Below, piece by piece: positions 2,641 to 41,408 of a stretch of DNA of 52,776 nt. This stretch comes from Sphingobacteriales bacterium. Lineage in GTDB: Bacteria > Bacteroidota > Bacteroidia > Sphingobacteriales > Sphingobacteriaceae. The notes beneath the pieces are model-generated. The model searched no databases, was not told where the DNA came from, and saw only the letters and a program-made list of their open reading frames with translations. A program made the position numbers and the translations under genes. The stretch lies in NCBI GenBank assembly GCA_004292865.1, contig RDXP01000118.1, positions 1 through 52,776 of the forward strand, read 5' to 3'. Numbering within the stretch: position 1 is the stretch's first letter; every line of letters starts with the position of its first letter.

Positions 2641-3005
2641 GTTTGTGGGATTAAATTTTGCTAAAATTATATAAGCAAAATTTACTACACCATACCCTGA
2701 TGAGGGTATATTTTAAATTGTTTTGGTAAAATTCTAAAGTTTCGGCGTAAGTAAAAATTAGATATACGCCCTAAACAATAACAGAGATAGATTTTGTGAA
2801 TTTTTCACCACCAATATTCGTGTATTTGTGGTAAATAAATAAAGGCGACAATAAATAACCACCAATACACCAATACAAGGGTATAATTTTTTAATATTTT
2901 ATACCAACACGTTTAAACAAGTAGGAAATGAGATACTTTAAATTTAAAAAAAAACGTGTCTTTCGTTTTTACATTTCGCTAGCCTTAAAAAAAAGAAACA
3001 GATAC

Positions 3006-3037
3006 TTGCCTTTTAAAAACTAAAATTATTAGTTTTG
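3006..3037 (+). promoter_or_regulatory. Bacteroidetes-type promoter for rmuC
   Basis: TTG (3006-3008), ~21 nt spacer, TAGTTTTG (3030-3037), matching the TAnnTTTG -7 consensus, 17 nt before the ATG. Confidence 0.5.
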
Positions 3038-3054
3038 CATTCAAAATATTTTGT

Positions 3055-4452
3055 ATGGATATAGGCATATTATTAATTGCACTTGTGCTACTATTGGTAG
3101 CAGTTTATTTATTTGTAAAACGGCCAAAAGCTATTGAGGGGTTTACCCTTGCTGATTTTGATGCCCTTACCGCTCAAAATAATACACTTAAAACCAACTT
3201 GGCCGTAGCCGAACAGCAAATTAAAAATGCCCAAGAAAACGAGCATAAGCTACTAACGCTACAGCGAGAAGAAAAAGCAGTTTCGGATAATTCGTTTATA
3301 ACGAGGATAGAAAAACTGGAGACCGAAAAATTGGCTATTGCCGAACAACTTACCAACGAGAAAAAAAGAATGAGCCAAGCCGAAGAAAGTTTTAAAGCCC
3401 AACGCGAAAAACTGATAGAGCAAAAACAGTTTGTGGACGATGCACAGCTGAAGTTTAAAACCGAATTTGAAAACGTGGCCAATAAAATATTAAAAGAAAA
3501 AACAGCCGAGTTTACCGAAGTAAATAAAACCAACCTAGATACAATATTAAACCCCTTAAAAGAAAACATTAAAGCCTTTGAAAACAAGGTAGATAAGGCT
3601 TACAGTGCCGAAGCTGGCGAACGTAATGTACTAAAAGGAACAATAGAACAAATGATGCTGATGAACAAAACCATGAGCATTGAAACCTTAAACCTCACCA
3701 AAGCATTAAAAGGCGATAATAAAAAACAAGGCAACTGGGGCGAAATGGTACTGGATAAATTATTAGAAAACTCGGGGCTAATTGAGGGCTTAAATTATGC
3801 CAAACAAAAAAGTTTTACAGCCGAAGATGGCAACCGTGTGCAGCCCGATGTGGTTATATTTTTACCCAACGAAAAACATATTGTTATTGATGCTAAAGTA
3901 TCATTAGTGGCTTACGAAAGGCTGGTAAATAACGATGTAGAAGATGACCGCGAAACGCTAACCAAGCTACATGTAAATTCTATAAAAACGCATATTATGG
4001 GTTTAAGTGGGAAAAATTACCATGATTTGTATGCCATAAATTCGCCCGATTTTGTATTGCTTTTTGTACCGATAGAGTCATCGTTTGCCATTGCGGTACA
4101 GTACGACCAAGAGCTATTTGATTTTGCCTTGCGCAAAAAGGTAGCATTAGTTACACCATCCACACTTTTGGCTACCTTAAAAACAGTGGCTTTTATGTGG
4201 AAACAAGAACAACAAACCAAAAATGCGATTGATATAGCCACCAAGGCTGGGCAGTTGTACGATAAGTTTGTAGGCTTTGTAACCGATTTACAAAAAGTGG
4301 GCGAGCATATTGATAAATCTCAAAAAGTATATAGCGATGCCATGGGAAAATTAAGTACAGGCAGCGGCAACTTGCTAGGCCGGGTAGAAAACCTAAAAAA
4401 ACTTGGCGCAATAGCCAATAAAAGCTTAGACGCTAAATTTTTGGAAGACTAA
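3055..4452 (+). CDS. rmuC: DNA recombination protein RmuC
   Basis: N-terminal TM, coiled coil, then GNWGEMVLDKLLE...QPDVVIFLPNEKHIVIDAKVSLVAYERL typical of RmuC. Confidence 0.93.
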   Translation: MDIGILLIALVLLLVAVYLFVKRPKAIEGFTLADFDALTAQNNTLKTNLAVAEQQIKNAQENEHKLLTLQREEKAVSDNSFITRIEKLETEKLAIAEQLTNEKKRMSQAEESFKAQREKLIEQKQFVDDAQLKFKTEFENVANKILKEKTAEFTEVNKTNLDTILNPLKENIKAFENKVDKAYSAEAGERNVLKGTIEQMMLMNKTMSIETLNLTKALKGDNKKQGNWGEMVLDKLLENSGLIEGLNYAKQKSFTAEDGNRVQPDVVIFLPNEKHIVIDAKVSLVAYERLVNNDVEDDRETLTKLHVNSIKTHIMGLSGKNYHDLYAINSPDFVLLFVPIESSFAIAVQYDQELFDFALRKKVALVTPSTLLATLKTVAFMWKQEQQTKNAIDIATKAGQLYDKFVGFVTDLQKVGEHIDKSQKVYSDAMGKLSTGSGNLLGRVENLKKLGAIANKSLDAKFLED

Positions 4453-4529: not shown

Positions 4530-4767
4530 AAACTTTTGGAGGATTAAAATATTTAGATGCGTTAAATTAAATCTTAAAAATGTTGTTATTAACGCAACGT
4601 ATTTATAAAATTAGCTGGGTATAAAAGCAATAAGCTTTGCGTAAATCTTTGTGTTCTTTGCGGTATATTTTTACCCCAAAGTGCGCAAAGAACACAAAGC
4701 TGGGTGTAAACACCATCTTAAATAAAAAAGACAAAAAAACACCTCATTATTTACCTCCGAAACTTTA
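4530..4767 (+). repeat. MITE-like dispersed repeat, copy A
   Basis: aaacttttggaggattaaaatatttagat ... internal TTTGTGTTCTTTGCGGTA/ACCCCAAAGTGCGCAAAGAACACAAAG fold-back ... tttacctccgaaactttaa. Confidence 0.8.
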
Positions 4768-5375: not shown

Positions 5376-5470
5376 TTTTAAATATACTTTATTTTTTTTG
5401 GGGGGGGAGTGGGATAAAATAAGCGATGCCGCCCCACGGTTTAGTTAAATAAATATAGCCAAGCTAGGCA

Positions 5471-6445
5471 TTATTTGTTTCTCTCAATAGTAAATCGTAC
5501 AAGGTGCTGAAGCCCTGTTTTTGACGGGCTATCGGCAAAAGAGGCCAGTATAGCAAAAGCCTCATTTTGGTAGTTCATCATTTGCTGTTCGGCATAAGCC
5601 AGCCCCCCACTATGCTTTACAAAATCAATAATTTTTTTGATTTTTTCAGGCTCATCGTTATGGTTTTTTACTAAATTAATGATGGCTTTTTTATTGGCCG
5701 AGCTCGCATTATTAAGCGCATAAATTAAGGGTAAAGTAACTTTTTTTTCTTTAATATCTATGCCTTTGGGTTTACCCACATCATCGGTACCAAAATCAAA
5801 TAGGTCGTCTTTAATTTGAAAAGCAATGCCAATTTTTTCGCCAAACGAGTGCATTTTTTTTATCGTTTCGTCATCGGCACCAGCCGATGCAGCACCACAT
5901 GCACAGCAGGATGCTATAAGCGAAGCTGTTTTTTGTCTAATTACCTCGTAGTAAACCGCTTCGCTAATATCCATTCGGCGTACTTTTTCTATCTGTAACA
6001 GTTCGCCTTCGCTCATTTGCTCCACCGCTGTTGAAACAATTTTTAGCAAAGCGAAATCATTATTATTAATAGAAAGTAACAAGCCTTTGGCCAGCAGATA
6101 ATCGCCTACGAGTACGGCAATTTTATTTTTCCATAACGCATTTATCGAAAAAAAACCACGCCGCTGGAAAGAGTTATCTACCACATCATCATGTACTAAA
6201 GATGCGGTGTGCAAAAGCTCAACCAAAGCAGCACCACGGTAGGTAGCTTCGTTTATACCGCCACACATATTGGCCGCAAAAAAAACAAACATAGGCCGTA
6301 TTTGCTTGCCTTTTCGTTTTACGATATAATGCGTAATACGATCAAGCAATGGTACTTTACTATGCATAGATAGTTTAAATTTTGCCTCAAAAGCATCAAT
6401 TTCTTTAGCAATTGGGTTTTTTATTTCATCAATACCAAGCATCAA
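5471..6445 (-). CDS. Polyprenyl diphosphate synthase (octaprenyl-type)
   Basis: Asp-rich motifs LVHDDVVDNS and IKDDLFDF of the trans-isoprenyl synthase family. Confidence 0.92.
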   Translation of the reverse strand: MMLGIDEIKNPIAKEIDAFEAKFKLSMHSKVPLLDRITHYIVKRKGKQIRPMFVFFAANMCGGINEATYRGAALVELLHTASLVHDDVVDNSFQRRGFFSINALWKNKIAVLVGDYLLAKGLLLSINNNDFALLKIVSTAVEQMSEGELLQIEKVRRMDISEAVYYEVIRQKTASLIASCCACGAASAGADDETIKKMHSFGEKIGIAFQIKDDLFDFGTDDVGKPKGIDIKEKKVTLPLIYALNNASSANKKAIINLVKNHNDEPEKIKKIIDFVKHSGGLAYAEQQMMNYQNEAFAILASFADSPSKTGLQHLVRFTIERNK

Positions 6446-32974: not shown

Positions 32975-33206
32975 AAAAACTTTTTTTTAACACCGCAAGC
33001 GTTAAGCACATCTGTATTTTTCTTTTTAGAAACTAGGCTTTGTGTAGTTATACCAAAAAACTTGCGCCTAACGGTTGGTGGCTACTACATGAAGGAAGGG
33101 AAAAGAAAGCACATCTGCTTAATTGCTTCCAAATAATGAAAACAGTAAAAATGTTCATCACTTGCACTAAAGCCCACCTTTCTTTTTAGCGCATGTTGTG
33201 CTATCG

Positions 33207-34829
33207 TTAATCGAAATTCTCTTTAATGTATTTTTTAAGATTATTGTTAGCTGGTTTTAAATCAAAATGTTTGTTTAGCATATATTCAGTTGTAAGTAAG
33301 GCGCCTTCAACCCAACTCTGTTTATTTGAATATGCAGAACCACAAATAAATACATCGAAATTAGACACAGGTTTTATCATTTCTTTTATTATTTTTTTTG
33401 GATTACTATAAGGCACAAAACAATGATAGGCTTCATCCCAATATGAATAAGCAATGTTTTTTACTGTCGGAATTTCAAAATCGGGACGGCATTTAAAAAT
33501 TCGGATTAAGTCCTCAATGTGTTTTGAAATATGCATAACAAAAAATTCATGTTTAGCATCTATTGGAGAGTTAGCTCCTTTGTACTTTGAATTCGGCAAC
33601 CCCATTTCATACACTGCTGCTTGGTCCGCGTATATTAGTATTACTGTTTCCTTAGAATTTGTATCATCATTTTTTAAAAAATATGCCATTCGTATTACAC
33701 CATCTGTATATATTTTTTTCCCTTGTAAATCCATATTATGCATTTGATCAGATTCGTCCAAATGAACATACAGTTTTAAAGATTGCATCTTTTGTACTTG
33801 ATTTAATTTACTTTCCGATAAGCCATTTTCCGAACTAAAAAAAGTTGTGGTTCTACTTAATTGTTTAATCGGCATTTTAGGCATTGCAAGAATTATTTTA
33901 TTGCAAAAAATGTACTTACTTTTATTAGAAACTAAGTCTGTATATTCTAAAAAATATTCTGTTGACTTACCTTGTTTTTTTAAACTTTCAAATATTGTTG
34001 CAGCTTTCTCATCTGTAGAATTTTCAATATTTTTTTTAAACTTAATAACTTGAGATTTTAAAAGCAATTGCCCATTCATTTCTATGAAATTATCTCTTAA
34101 CGCTTCTACAATTTTTTGAAACCCTTTCAAAATAAATTTGTAACCGCCATGATTAAAACGATACATTTCTATCATTCCTTCCGAAGCAGAAAGGTTATCT
34201 AAATTAGAGTTATAACCCTCAGTAGATTTAATAAGACTAATCGCTTCCGCAGATAATGTTTGGAATAAAAAAGTAGACCAGTTTATTTGAGTAAGATATG
34301 TAGATTTATATTTATTCGTTTTAATAAGTTTGTTAATTATCTCCCTCTTTTCATCAATAGTTTTTGTTACAAAGCCAGTCAAACCATAGTTCTCTTGAAT
34401 AGCATATTCCACCAGTTCAATAGGTGTCATGTTTATTTCATTACTCTTCAATTTGTAAATAAGCTGAACAACAGTTTTAATATTAGTTTCTTCACATTTC
34501 TGTCCCCTTAAAATAAACCCAAGAAGTTCGTAACTAAAATCATCGGTTTCTAATTGTAAATAGTCTTTTAAATAGTTCACTAATGCGTGTTCTGTATGGA
34601 AGCGCATACCACCATGTTCAATTGGAGAGGTTTTTAAGCCCGGGAAAAATTGAGATTTTAATCGCCCCCCTACATTGCTTGATTTTTCTAAAATTATTAC
34701 TTTTTTTGTTTGGTTGGTATCTTTTAATATTCTTTCTCCTGCATACATCCCAGCAATACCAGCTCCAACAATTGCAATATCACATAATTGAAAATCGGAT
34801 TGTTGATTTGTTTTGTTTTGTTTTAACAT
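33207..34829 (-). CDS. FAD-dependent flavin monoamine oxidase-like oxidoreductase
   Basis: CDIAIVGAGIAGMYAGERILKD...KKVIILEKSSNVGGRLKSQFF; EHGGMRFHTEHALV; C-term FICGSAYSNKQSWVEGALLTTEYML. Confidence 0.85.
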   Translation of the reverse strand: MLKQNKTNQQSDFQLCDIAIVGAGIAGMYAGERILKDTNQTKKVIILEKSSNVGGRLKSQFFPGLKTSPIEHGGMRFHTEHALVNYLKDYLQLETDDFSYELLGFILRGQKCEETNIKTVVQLIYKLKSNEINMTPIELVEYAIQENYGLTGFVTKTIDEKREIINKLIKTNKYKSTYLTQINWSTFLFQTLSAEAISLIKSTEGYNSNLDNLSASEGMIEMYRFNHGGYKFILKGFQKIVEALRDNFIEMNGQLLLKSQVIKFKKNIENSTDEKAATIFESLKKQGKSTEYFLEYTDLVSNKSKYIFCNKIILAMPKMPIKQLSRTTTFFSSENGLSESKLNQVQKMQSLKLYVHLDESDQMHNMDLQGKKIYTDGVIRMAYFLKNDDTNSKETVILIYADQAAVYEMGLPNSKYKGANSPIDAKHEFFVMHISKHIEDLIRIFKCRPDFEIPTVKNIAYSYWDEAYHCFVPYSNPKKIIKEMIKPVSNFDVFICGSAYSNKQSWVEGALLTTEYMLNKHFDLKPANNNLKKYIKENFD

Positions 34830-34862
34830 ATTATTATTTGATTTTGATCTTGTTTTTTGGGC

Positions 34863-34940
34863 ATAACACACAACACAAAAATTTACGCAAAGCCTATTTT
34901 TACGCCCAGATAATTCTATAAAAACGCTGCTTTATAGCCT
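34863..34940 (-). repeat. Truncated MITE-like fragment, copy E
   Basis: acacaaaaatttacgcaaagcctatttttacgcccagataattctataaaaacgctgctttatagc matches the left-internal part of copies C/G. Confidence 0.5.
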
Positions 34941-38647: not shown

Positions 38648-39333
38648 TTTTTTTGTTTGGGCTTCGGGCTTTAGCCCTTGGCTGGTTGTTTTATGCTATT
38701 GACCGATGGCCTTTAGCGTTGTTTGTTTTTTTATTGGGGCGTGTCCCCTCCAAAAAGGGGGCGGGCTTTACGTTGCAATAATTTTGTCCCAAAAGGCAAA
38801 ATTGATTTCCACTGCAATCCCTCACGCAAAAATTTGGGTTCATAAATAAACCACTAAATTACCAAAACCAATCTTAAAATTTCGTTAATTTTTTTGACCT
38901 TTTCCCTTGGCTAGTGGCACACCATACCGATTTTTACTGCGTTTTGTGTGCCAATAACCACGGGGGTAAATTTTCTAAATTATGTTTTTTTGAACTTTAC
39001 CCATTTACATCTTATTTTTTGTTTGTTAACCATTTAAAATTTACAATTATTTCTCCAAAATTAATTAATTAAGCAATTTATAAGTTACAATACTTCTAAA
39101 TAATTTATAGTTTGGGTATATTTTATGTATTTTAATTTAATAATTGCTTATGATTCATCAGAAATTTAAGCTATTTACAAAAAATTAATTCTTTTTATAC
39201 CCCATTTGTTATTCTTTATAAAAAATGGGTATTTAAAGTTATCTGCTAAATACCGAACCAGCTAATGCCATTTCGATTTCCAAAGTTTTATGCACCAGCA
39301 TTGCGCAATCAGTAATTTTAGCTGTTTTTTACT

Positions 39334-39384
39334 AAACTTTTAGAAGATTAAATTATTTAGATGCGTTAAATTAAATCTTAAAAA
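39334..39384 (+). repeat. MITE-like repeat, copy F, left part (interrupted)
   Basis: aaacttttagaagattaaattatttagatgcgttaaattaaatcttaaaa, near-identical to the start of copy A. Confidence 0.8.
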
Positions 39385-40536
39385 ATAGGGCTTGTGGCAG
39401 GTGGAGATTTGAAACTCATCCGCCCGAAGGTACGCCGATATAAATTACTGATTTTTATTTACTTGAAAATTTTTAATAGGTTTCCGTCTGCCAAAAAAAG
39501 TACAATAAAGTTATAAAAGTTAAATTACTTCCTTTAGCACCACTTGCCACAGGCTCTGTTAGACAAAGTTATTTTTTCGCCAAGTTATTTCGTATTTCTT
39601 CGATTTTATCAGTTGTCAAACCAGTCAAGTCGGCAATAATGGGGTTTTCAAATCCTTTCAAAATTAACTTTTCAACAATTTCTGTTTGAATTTTCTGTCT
39701 TTCGTCTATTCTAACGCTATCCTCTGCTTCTGATTTTAGAGAAAAAATCTCACTCGCTTTGTAATGTAAATAGTCCAAATAACGATTATAGCTAAATTGG
39801 TCGTCTTGTGGAAGTCGCATAAAGTCTAACACTTCTCCTGCTTGTTTTAAACCTTTTGCTTTGAACTCGTCTTTTACTTCGCTATTTTTCAAAAAGTAAA
39901 TCCATTCATCTAAATTATCTTTTGCAATGTCGTTAAACTTATTTACTTTGATAATGTAAAATTCAGGAAAAATGTCTGAAACTTTATCTTTAAAAAATGC
40001 TGTTTTTTGCTTCTCCGAGAGCGTTAATGTGTCATTTTGATGAAGTCCAAAAAAGTTTGTACTACCCTTATAAACATAATCGTACCCTTGTCCAAGGTCA
40101 AAATAAACAATGTTTATCGAAATCACCTTTTTGATTTCAGAATAGGCTTGTCCTAGTAATAAGTTTTCAGTCAAAGCCTTTGAAGCTCCGTAAGCCATTC
40201 GGTGGAAAAAGTCAATTTCGTAAGTGTTTTGAATTTCAACAACGATTAACTCATTTTTAGAGTTTTGCGTTAAAATGTCCACTCGGTTAAACTTGTCGTC
40301 TTCGGTTTCTTGGTTTCCTTCGCTTTCCAGTATTTTTTCAATACGAATATCGTCAAAGAGTAATTCGCTTAAAAACCCTTCTAAAACGCCAAAATTAGCT
40401 TTGTTTCGCAATAACTTCTTTACTGCCCAGTCAAATCGAATAAGTTTTTTATTCATTGTCGAATTAAATTTTCTGTCGCAAAGATACTATTTTTTGGGTT
40501 GAGGTTGTTCGTTTAGTGGTCGTTTTATAATTGCCT
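39385..40536. mobile_element. ~1.15 kb insertion carrying the Rpn-like gene inside MITE-like copy F
   Basis: Copy A reads continuously ...aaatcttaaaaatgttgttattaacgcaacg...; copy F stops at 39384 and resumes at ~40537 with ...aatgttcttattaacgcaacg... Confidence 0.75.
39569..40456 (-). CDS. Rpn-family recombination-promoting nuclease / PD-(D/E)XK nuclease family putative transposase
   Basis: RFDWAVKKLLRNKANFGVLEGFLSELLFDDIRI...NRVDILTQNSKNELIVVEIQNTYEIDFFHRMAYGASKAL, nuclease D...ExQ. Confidence 0.9.
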   Translation of the reverse strand: MNKKLIRFDWAVKKLLRNKANFGVLEGFLSELLFDDIRIEKILESEGNQETEDDKFNRVDILTQNSKNELIVVEIQNTYEIDFFHRMAYGASKALTENLLLGQAYSEIKKVISINIVYFDLGQGYDYVYKGSTNFFGLHQNDTLTLSEKQKTAFFKDKVSDIFPEFYIIKVNKFNDIAKDNLDEWIYFLKNSEVKDEFKAKGLKQAGEVLDFMRLPQDDQFSYNRYLDYLHYKASEIFSLKSEAEDSVRIDERQKIQTEIVEKLILKGFENPIIADLTGLTTDKIEEIRNNLAKK

Positions 40537-40738
40537 AATGTTCTTATTAACGCAACGTATTTATAAAATTAGCTGGGTATTAAAGCAATAGGCTTTGCGT
40601 AAATCTTTGTGTTCTTTGCGGTATATTTTTACCGCAAAGTCCGTAAAGAGAAAGCGCAAAGAACACAAAGCTGGGTGTAAGCACCATCTTAAATAAAAAA
40701 GACAAAAAACACCTCATTATTTACCTCCGAAACTTTAG
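40537..40738 (+). repeat. MITE-like repeat, copy F, right part (interrupted)
   Basis: atgttcttattaacgcaacgtatttataaaattagctgggta ... acctccgaaactttag. Confidence 0.85.
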
Positions 40739-40922: not shown

Positions 40923-41408
40923 TTAGCTGCATTTTTGGTTGCTTAATATATTGGAGTGGTTGGTTTTTAATAAACTAACTACGTGTTTATCAACCGCAAA
41001 AGTAACATCGGCTTCGCTAATTTTATCTAAACTAATAAATCTAAACGCTTGCTTGGCATCCCCGTAAGGGTTTAAAAAATTATAGGGAATATTGCTGATG
41101 GGTAAGTTAAAGGTGCTTATTGGCTTTACCAAGTAATACACGGCAATTAATTGGCCGCCGCCAAAAACAGATTCTACAAAAAAATGGGTGGTGTAAAAAT
41201 GGGTTATAATTTCTATGTCTAAGGCACATTCTTCTATAAACTCACGCTTTAAACCATCTATTAAGCCTTCGCCAAACACTAAGCCGCCACCGGGAAATTT
41301 GGTAAACCTTTTGCCGTTTTCTTCTTCGTCGCTTATAAGTATTTGTTGGTTTTGGTTTATTAACAGGCCATATACCCGTATATTAAATTTATGCGGCATC
41401 GTGTTCAA
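40923..41408 (-). CDS. NUDIX hydrolase
   Basis: GGGLVFGEGLIDGLKREFIEECALDIE Nudix-box-like sequence. Confidence 0.9.
   Translation of the reverse strand: MNTMPHKFNIRVYGLLINQNQQILISDEEENGKRFTKFPGGGLVFGEGLIDGLKREFIEECALDIEIITHFYTTHFFVESVFGGGQLIAVYYLVKPISTFNLPISNIPYNFLNPYGDAKQAFRFISLDKISEADVTFAVDKHVVSLLKTNHSNILSNQKCS

Follow-up and report, generated by a model that had tools for sequence, protein, structure and literature searches.

An rpn gene within a MITE copy of a Sphingobacteriaceae genome: a probable integron cassette outside an integron

The attC sites of integrons have R'' and R' cores of the form RYYYAAC and GTTRRRY, with the crossover past the G (PMC12901181). The integron integrase IntI carries a specific domain that is considered its defining feature and necessary for integron-mediated recombination (PMC9668308). 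Surveys have reported few integrons in Bacteroidetes (PMC9024848). IntI1 is also reported to insert cassettes into bacterial genomes at attG sites (Loot et al. 2024, as described in PMC12444791 and PMC12901181). Rpn proteins belong to a different literature. In E. coli they act in phage defence as toxin-antitoxin pairs (RpnL/RpnS), and they have been judged unlikely to be transposases (Zhong et al. 2023, PMC10327210).

Here we present the case of an rpn gene in a 52,776-nucleotide stretch of DNA from a Sphingobacteriales bacterium (contig RDXP01000118.1 of assembly GCA_004292865.1, positions 1 to 52,776; "the window"). The source genome is a metagenome-assembled genome (MAG) of 219 contigs. 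The original prediction described this gene as sitting inside a copy of a dispersed repeat, forming a natural filled site. A reference copy of the repeat (copy A) is at 4530-4767 of the window (100% match), and a genome search returns 42 matches, corresponding to about 40 copies of approximately 240 bp. The copies have 15-bp terminal inverted repeats (TIRs; CTAAACTTTCGGAGG / CCTCCGAAACTTTAG) and a 7-bp target duplication that is perfect in many of them. Around the copies, the fraction of matching 7-bp flanks is 0.67 compared to 0.47 for shuffled flanks (standard deviation 0.025), while matches at 5, 6 and 9 bp stay at the shuffled level, and at 8 bp the values are 0.46 and 0.40. The inverted repeats, the 7-bp duplication and the roughly 40 copies identify the repeat as a MITE; the duplication is of constant length, the family has no coding capacity, and no transposase has been identified for it. 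One copy, on contig C60 (L066, 12992-13164), has a short internal insert (about 55 bp) following position 55.

The MITE copy of interest is found in two parts. Positions 1-51 of copy A align to 39334-39384 and positions 50-238 to 40537-40737, with identities of 94% and 91%, and the two halves keep their order and orientation. Copy A and the copy on contig C138, both uninterrupted, read AACA^TTTTTAAG at the insertion point. These paralogous copies provide the empty site, as had been proposed, and they define both ends of the insert. The boundaries, originally placed to near base level, are refined to those given in Table 1. Since the repeat is a MITE, two halves that abut at one nucleotide position are not a chance arrangement. 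The original prediction had itself considered two independent truncated copies, and an assembly chimera would be another way for MITE halves to flank rpn by chance. The MAG is fragmented and truncated MITE copies do exist, but the halves join at positions 51/50 of a single element with both outer TIRs present, and other MITE copies are split likewise by other genes, all of which makes such an accident extremely improbable. We also looked for the empty site at the orthologous locus across the genus, as originally suggested, and found none; in the closest relative (G004), synteny ends at window position 40956.

Table 1. Coordinates of the features of the window described in the text.
Feature	Coordinates	Strand	Basis
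MITE, left part	39332..39384		TIR CTAAACTTTTAGAAG... to ...AAATCTTAAAA; 94% to copy A 1-51; TIR and target duplication analysis of the family
MITE, right part	40539..40738		...TGTTCTTATTAACGC to TIR CCTCCGAAACTTTAG; 91% to copy A 50-238
Insert of 1,154 bp, putative integron-type gene cassette	39385..40538	minus	Ends set by uninterrupted MITE copies; TTAGGC start, attC-like hairpin outer end
Cassette start TTAGGC	40533..40538	minus	Core site GTTRRRY minus its G; preceding MITE base is A
TATCTTTG, promoter-like motif inside the rpn cassette	40479..40486	minus	Sequence reading alone
rpn gene, 295 aa, PD-(D/E)XK family	39569..40456	minus	PF12784 PDDEXK_2, TIGR01784; D60/E74/Q76 in place
R'' core GTCTAAC	39558..39564	minus	4 nt past the rpn stop; against own start GTTAGGC, 6/7 pairs and one G-T wobble
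attC-like site of the rpn cassette	39385..39564	minus	Arms AGAGCCTGTGGCAAGTGG / CCACCTGCCACAAGCCC, long variable loop
Second MITE copy in the window, partial	34874..34936	minus	Interrupted at TTTTTGTG^TT, MITE position 126; 82% to copy A 61-126
Second window cassette (putative)	33072..34873	minus	Amine-oxidase-like gene 33207-34871 and attC; interrupts the partial MITE at position 126

The rpn gene is the only gene in the insert. Its product scores 78.8 bits against PF12784 PDDEXK_2 (E=6.5e-22, cut-off 27.4) and 62.5 bits against TIGR01784 Rpn (cut-off 52.1), which bears out the family assignment made from the sequence. On the minus strand, the layout of the insert and its surroundings is ...GAACA^TTAGGCAATT...ATG-rpn-TAA CTTT GTCTAAC AGAGCCTGTGGCAAGTGG...CCACCTGCCACAAGCCCTAT^TTTTTAAG. 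The motif TATCTTTG within it is presumably a promoter-like element of the TAnnTTTG type found at -7 in Bacteroidota. The stem of the attC-like site has a score of 18.4 (z=7.5), and none of 60 shuffles does as well. The outer end of this hairpin coincides with the MITE junction, a boundary obtained from independent evidence. When the whole stretch is folded as DNA, its energy is unexceptional (z=-0.76); the evidence for the site lies in the placement of the arms and their pairing. The site is long, 185 nts, and in the window it is not detected by our attC model R2. R2 is a full-length covariance model built from 15 sites, some of them from this genome, and it replaced a short model of the arms only (R1) that had little power in this genome. 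The canonical G is missing at both junctions, which read A^TT at the cassette start and T^TT at the cassette end: the MITE target base is an A instead of a G, and the terminal G of the cassette is now a T. An AAT had been noticed at both junctions, where it is indeed present, but it is not a target duplication; read on the minus strand, it represents the (A)TT at each of the cassette's two core-site ends. Judged by these ends, the insert appears to be an integron gene cassette and not an Rpn element.

Other MITE copies are split as well, by four further cassettes or islands, and in three cases at the same nucleotide, TTTGTG^TTCTTT (contigs C200 and C29, and the second window cassette of Table 1). 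This position-126 site sits in one arm of a 16-bp hairpin of the MITE. That three different genes split MITEs at one nucleotide argues for site-specific recombination. On contig C195, a MITE is split by a tandem pair consisting of an adenine methyltransferase gene with an adjacent ORF, an attC, an rpn gene and another attC. The first cassette of the pair starts with GTTATGT and has the R'' ACATAAC, a perfect complement; the left junction has 3 extra nts. The C200 insert consists of a gene of 167 aa and an attC that scores 61.8 bits and was outside the training set of the model; its R'' does not match its own start. The second window cassette starts with TTGTGT and has the R'' GCACAAC, complementary at 6/7 positions. 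Its gene matches PF01593 with 38.5 bits, and R2 finds its attC at 33066-33201 with 34.1 bits and an E-value, rough as all R2 E-values are, of 4.6e-5 in one search and 3.9e-4 in another. The C29 insert (L065, 9786-14135) is 4.35 kb long and carries what we take from the sequence to be a DUF1016-like and an hsdS-like gene; no attC is recognised at its end or within it.

Do other rpn genes travel in the same way? Amongst 67 Rpn homologues examined, approximately 10 have an R'' at most 10 nts past the stop codon together with a significant stem, and 47 lack an R'' altogether at that place. The homologues with cassette-type starts or ends are found in other Bacteroidota. The cassette start GTTAGGC is found at four homologues (L082, L087, L093 and L113) and on contig C195, and in three of these (L087, L093 and L113) there is another attC-like hairpin upstream of it. 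The idea that rpn genes elsewhere might share flanks with this one holds for some homologues, which have the cassette start or the attC-like end, and fails for most. Since cassette ends are present at some Rpn homologues and not at most, rpn is a recurrent but not obligatory cargo of cassettes. By family membership, this cargo may serve in phage defence. At L082 (approximately 2910-4060), the Rpn cassette seems to interrupt a serine-hydrolase reading frame: with the flanks searched separately, the left one matches PF00144 (serine hydrolase) as far as position 302 of the 329 in the model, and the Pfam search of the right one gave no match.

The original prediction took the boundaries as those of a mobile element encoded by rpn. 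An element of this kind, in which the nuclease moves its own gene, would agree with the 'putative transposase' annotation of the Rpn/PDDEXK_2 families and with rpn being alone in the insert. We nevertheless consider it very unlikely. The ends are integron core sites, and in the same MITE family they also bound unrelated genes without rpn (the C195 methyltransferase, C200 and the second window cassette); most rpn homologues are without such ends, and Zhong et al. found nothing to indicate that rpn genes transpose autonomously (PMC10327210).

The logic of integron cassettes is also seen in arrays. In 19 of 21 cassettes from ten arrays, the start and the cassette's own R'' are complementary at 7/7 positions, a result that the scan does not impose, as it required R'' to be only loosely complementary to the next R', and set no condition on the own start. 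Restricted to variable positions, 59 of 63 pair, and none of 20,000 permutations is as good. The agreement of R'' with the start of the next cassette averages only 4.8/7. In the 15 attC sites of the model, the inner helix is paired in 97.9% of cells, and 15 of its 16 pairs covary with changes on both sides. The covariation score is 0.632, compared to 0.183 when shuffled, and slid versions do not exceed 0.10. R2 identifies 19 attC sites on 15 contigs of this genome, and all 18 genomes of the genus searched have them, with 3 to 77 sites each. A strict scan demanding both cores finds almost nothing, because the R' of an isolated cassette belongs to the target.

The same genome includes an integrase gene beside an attI and cassettes. 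Contig C136 reads, in order, an SSB-like partial gene, a tyrosine recombinase (269-1342, 357 aa), palindromes, an HsdM-type gene, an attC, a second gene and another attC. The palindromes end in ...GTGTATTTACGAG^TTAGGCG, with G^TTAGGC at about 1711. The two attC sites (4020-4149 with 107.4 bits and 5448-5579 with 106.9 bits) both belong to the model training set. With its integrase gene, the adjoining attI and the attC-bearing cassettes, C136 has the elements of a complete integron. Relatives have homologous integrase genes; next to these lies a conserved stretch that typically reads CATATATACAAG^TT, and beyond it the genes differ. In the attI surroundings of 15 genomes, conservation peaks next to G^TT and changes there, and across the genus the attI with its cassettes directly adjoins the C136-type gene. 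In G001, at least 14 attC sites are found 3' of the integrase gene within approximately 17 kb, all on the same strand. The same layout of integrase, attI and cassettes recurs on plasmid NZ_CP041688.1 of Chryseobacterium sp. SNU WT5, where the integrase is annotated as 'site-specific tyrosine recombinase/integron integrase'.

The palindromes 3' of the genes directly follow stop codons, as transcription terminators or regulatory hairpins would, and one may ask whether they are recombination sites at all. That they are mere terminators is most improbable, given that each start hexamer complements its own far-end R'' and not that of its neighbour, that the hairpin is common to unrelated genes, and that conservation by the attI changes at G^TT. 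A different role for the C136 recombinase, as an hsdS-shuffling enzyme, was considered for the HsdM-type gene next to it and ruled out, as relatives carry other cassettes at the same attI.

Two side observations concern these integrons. The SSB-like gene (PF00436) directly adjoins the integrase gene on C136 (both within L077, 1-1342), and the same is seen in L210 and L220; the link may be functional, because attC recombination uses single strands. The Chryseobacterium plasmid array (L234/L239, NZ_CP041688.1) also contains an IS110-family transposase and a group II intron, both of them element types that target attC sites.

The C136 integrase is distinct from canonical IntI. It scores 197.9 bits against TIGR02249 (IntI; cut-off 265) and 204.8 bits against NF040815 (cut-off 220), below the cut-off in both cases. 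All six catalytic residues R-K-H-R-H-Y are aligned and are conserved in its group. The distance from the catalytic Lys to the box II His is 64-65 residues in the group, compared to 106 in all 31 canonical IntI sequences compared. An IntI-specific insertion of approximately 41 residues is missing from the C136 integrase, as it also is in the alignment to IntI4 2A3V. In the tree, canonical IntI form a separate clade with 100/100 support; where the C136 group belongs among the Xer-like and IS91-associated recombinases is uncertain, as the branches are long. As the IntI domain is taken to be defining (PMC9668308), we do not file C136-type enzymes as IntI. From their position beside attI and cassettes, they nevertheless appear to occupy functionally the place of the integron integrase. 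Members of the same broad group of tyrosine recombinases adjoin IS91-family transposases on proteobacterial plasmids (L236, L237 and L238).

A canonical IntI, from a transient plasmid or an integron since lost, could have placed the rpn cassette instead of a C136-type enzyme. Use of attG by IntI1 has been reported (see above), and in a sample of the phylum 105 of 396 genomes have an IntI over the cut-off. But amongst the genomes of the same class listed only G106 passes, and we find none over the cut-off in this genome, in 59 relatives or in the 12 genomes reached via Rpn loci, while in the genus it is the C136-type gene that attI and cassettes directly adjoin. We regard a canonical IntI as an unlikely source, if less so than the other alternatives.

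Our preferred reading is that the insert is a single integron cassette and that a tyrosine recombinase of the integron type placed it outside any integron, at an attG-like position within a MITE. The enzyme was most likely that of C136 or a close relative. We give this reading a probability of roughly 0.88, on the sequence evidence of cassette-type ends, attC structure, array logic, the geometry of filled and empty MITE sites, and an integrase without the IntI insertion. The rpn cassette would have been excised from an array as a circle, and one strand of its attC would fold and be used as such. The C136-type integrase would then recombine the folded attC with the attG-like MITE site, and point changes may later have altered the junction bases. 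The rpn gene would be expressed from the cassette's own promoter.

Rpn genes are known to move horizontally although they are not transposases, by a route that Zhong et al. left open. The rpn locus may show one such route, travel in an integron cassette, and here the known empty site fixes both cassette ends. The locus is also a candidate natural case of a cassette inserted away from any integron, with repeated use of the same MITE nucleotide. Surveys count few integrons in Bacteroidetes, yet attC sites are present in every genus genome searched, many of which have an integrase below the cut-off of the standard model. If C136-type integrases are active, recombination at attC does not in every case need the IntI-specific domain. 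In the open-access literature searched we found no integrons of the C136 kind in Bacteroidota, which by itself does not prove their absence. On balance we lean towards the view that Bacteroidia carry a widespread, separate kind of integron, with an integrase lacking the IntI domain, that scatters cassettes (here one with a defence-type nuclease) across the chromosome and for which MITE hairpins are preferred dispersed landing sites.

How does this locus compare to the systems already described? The rpn product resembles known Rpn nucleases (PDDEXK_2, TIGR01784; RpnL/RpnS) in its family score and its D/E/Q residues, with the difference that here rpn seems to travel as an integron cassette. The C136 integrase shares with NF040815, XerA and IntI (TIGR02249) the R-K-H-R-H-Y of tyrosine recombinases, and differs in falling below the cut-offs of NF040815 and IntI, in a Lys-His stretch shorter than that of IntI, and in an N-terminal extension of approximately 67-85 residues. 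As in class 1 and sedentary chromosomal integrons, the arrays show R''/R' cores, a folded inverted repeat and a G^TT boundary, the cassette start complements its own R'', and the cassettes lie in tandem beside an integrase and an attI. In contrast to those integrons, the attC sites are mostly about 131 nts long with a characteristic family sequence, and the integrase is on the strand of the cassettes and lacks the IntI insertion. CALIN and single-attC elements likewise have attC sites with no integrase nearby, whereas here the same genome has an array of integrase, attI and attC, and the isolated cassettes look visibly like secondary-site insertions. A further parallel is given by the attG insertions of Loot et al. 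(2024), as far as they are described in the sources cited above: there, too, the cassette has left the integron context and occupies a site other than attI or attC. Compared to that account, this would be a natural case in which the empty site is visible, one MITE nucleotide is reused, and the target, A^TTTTT, is without the G.
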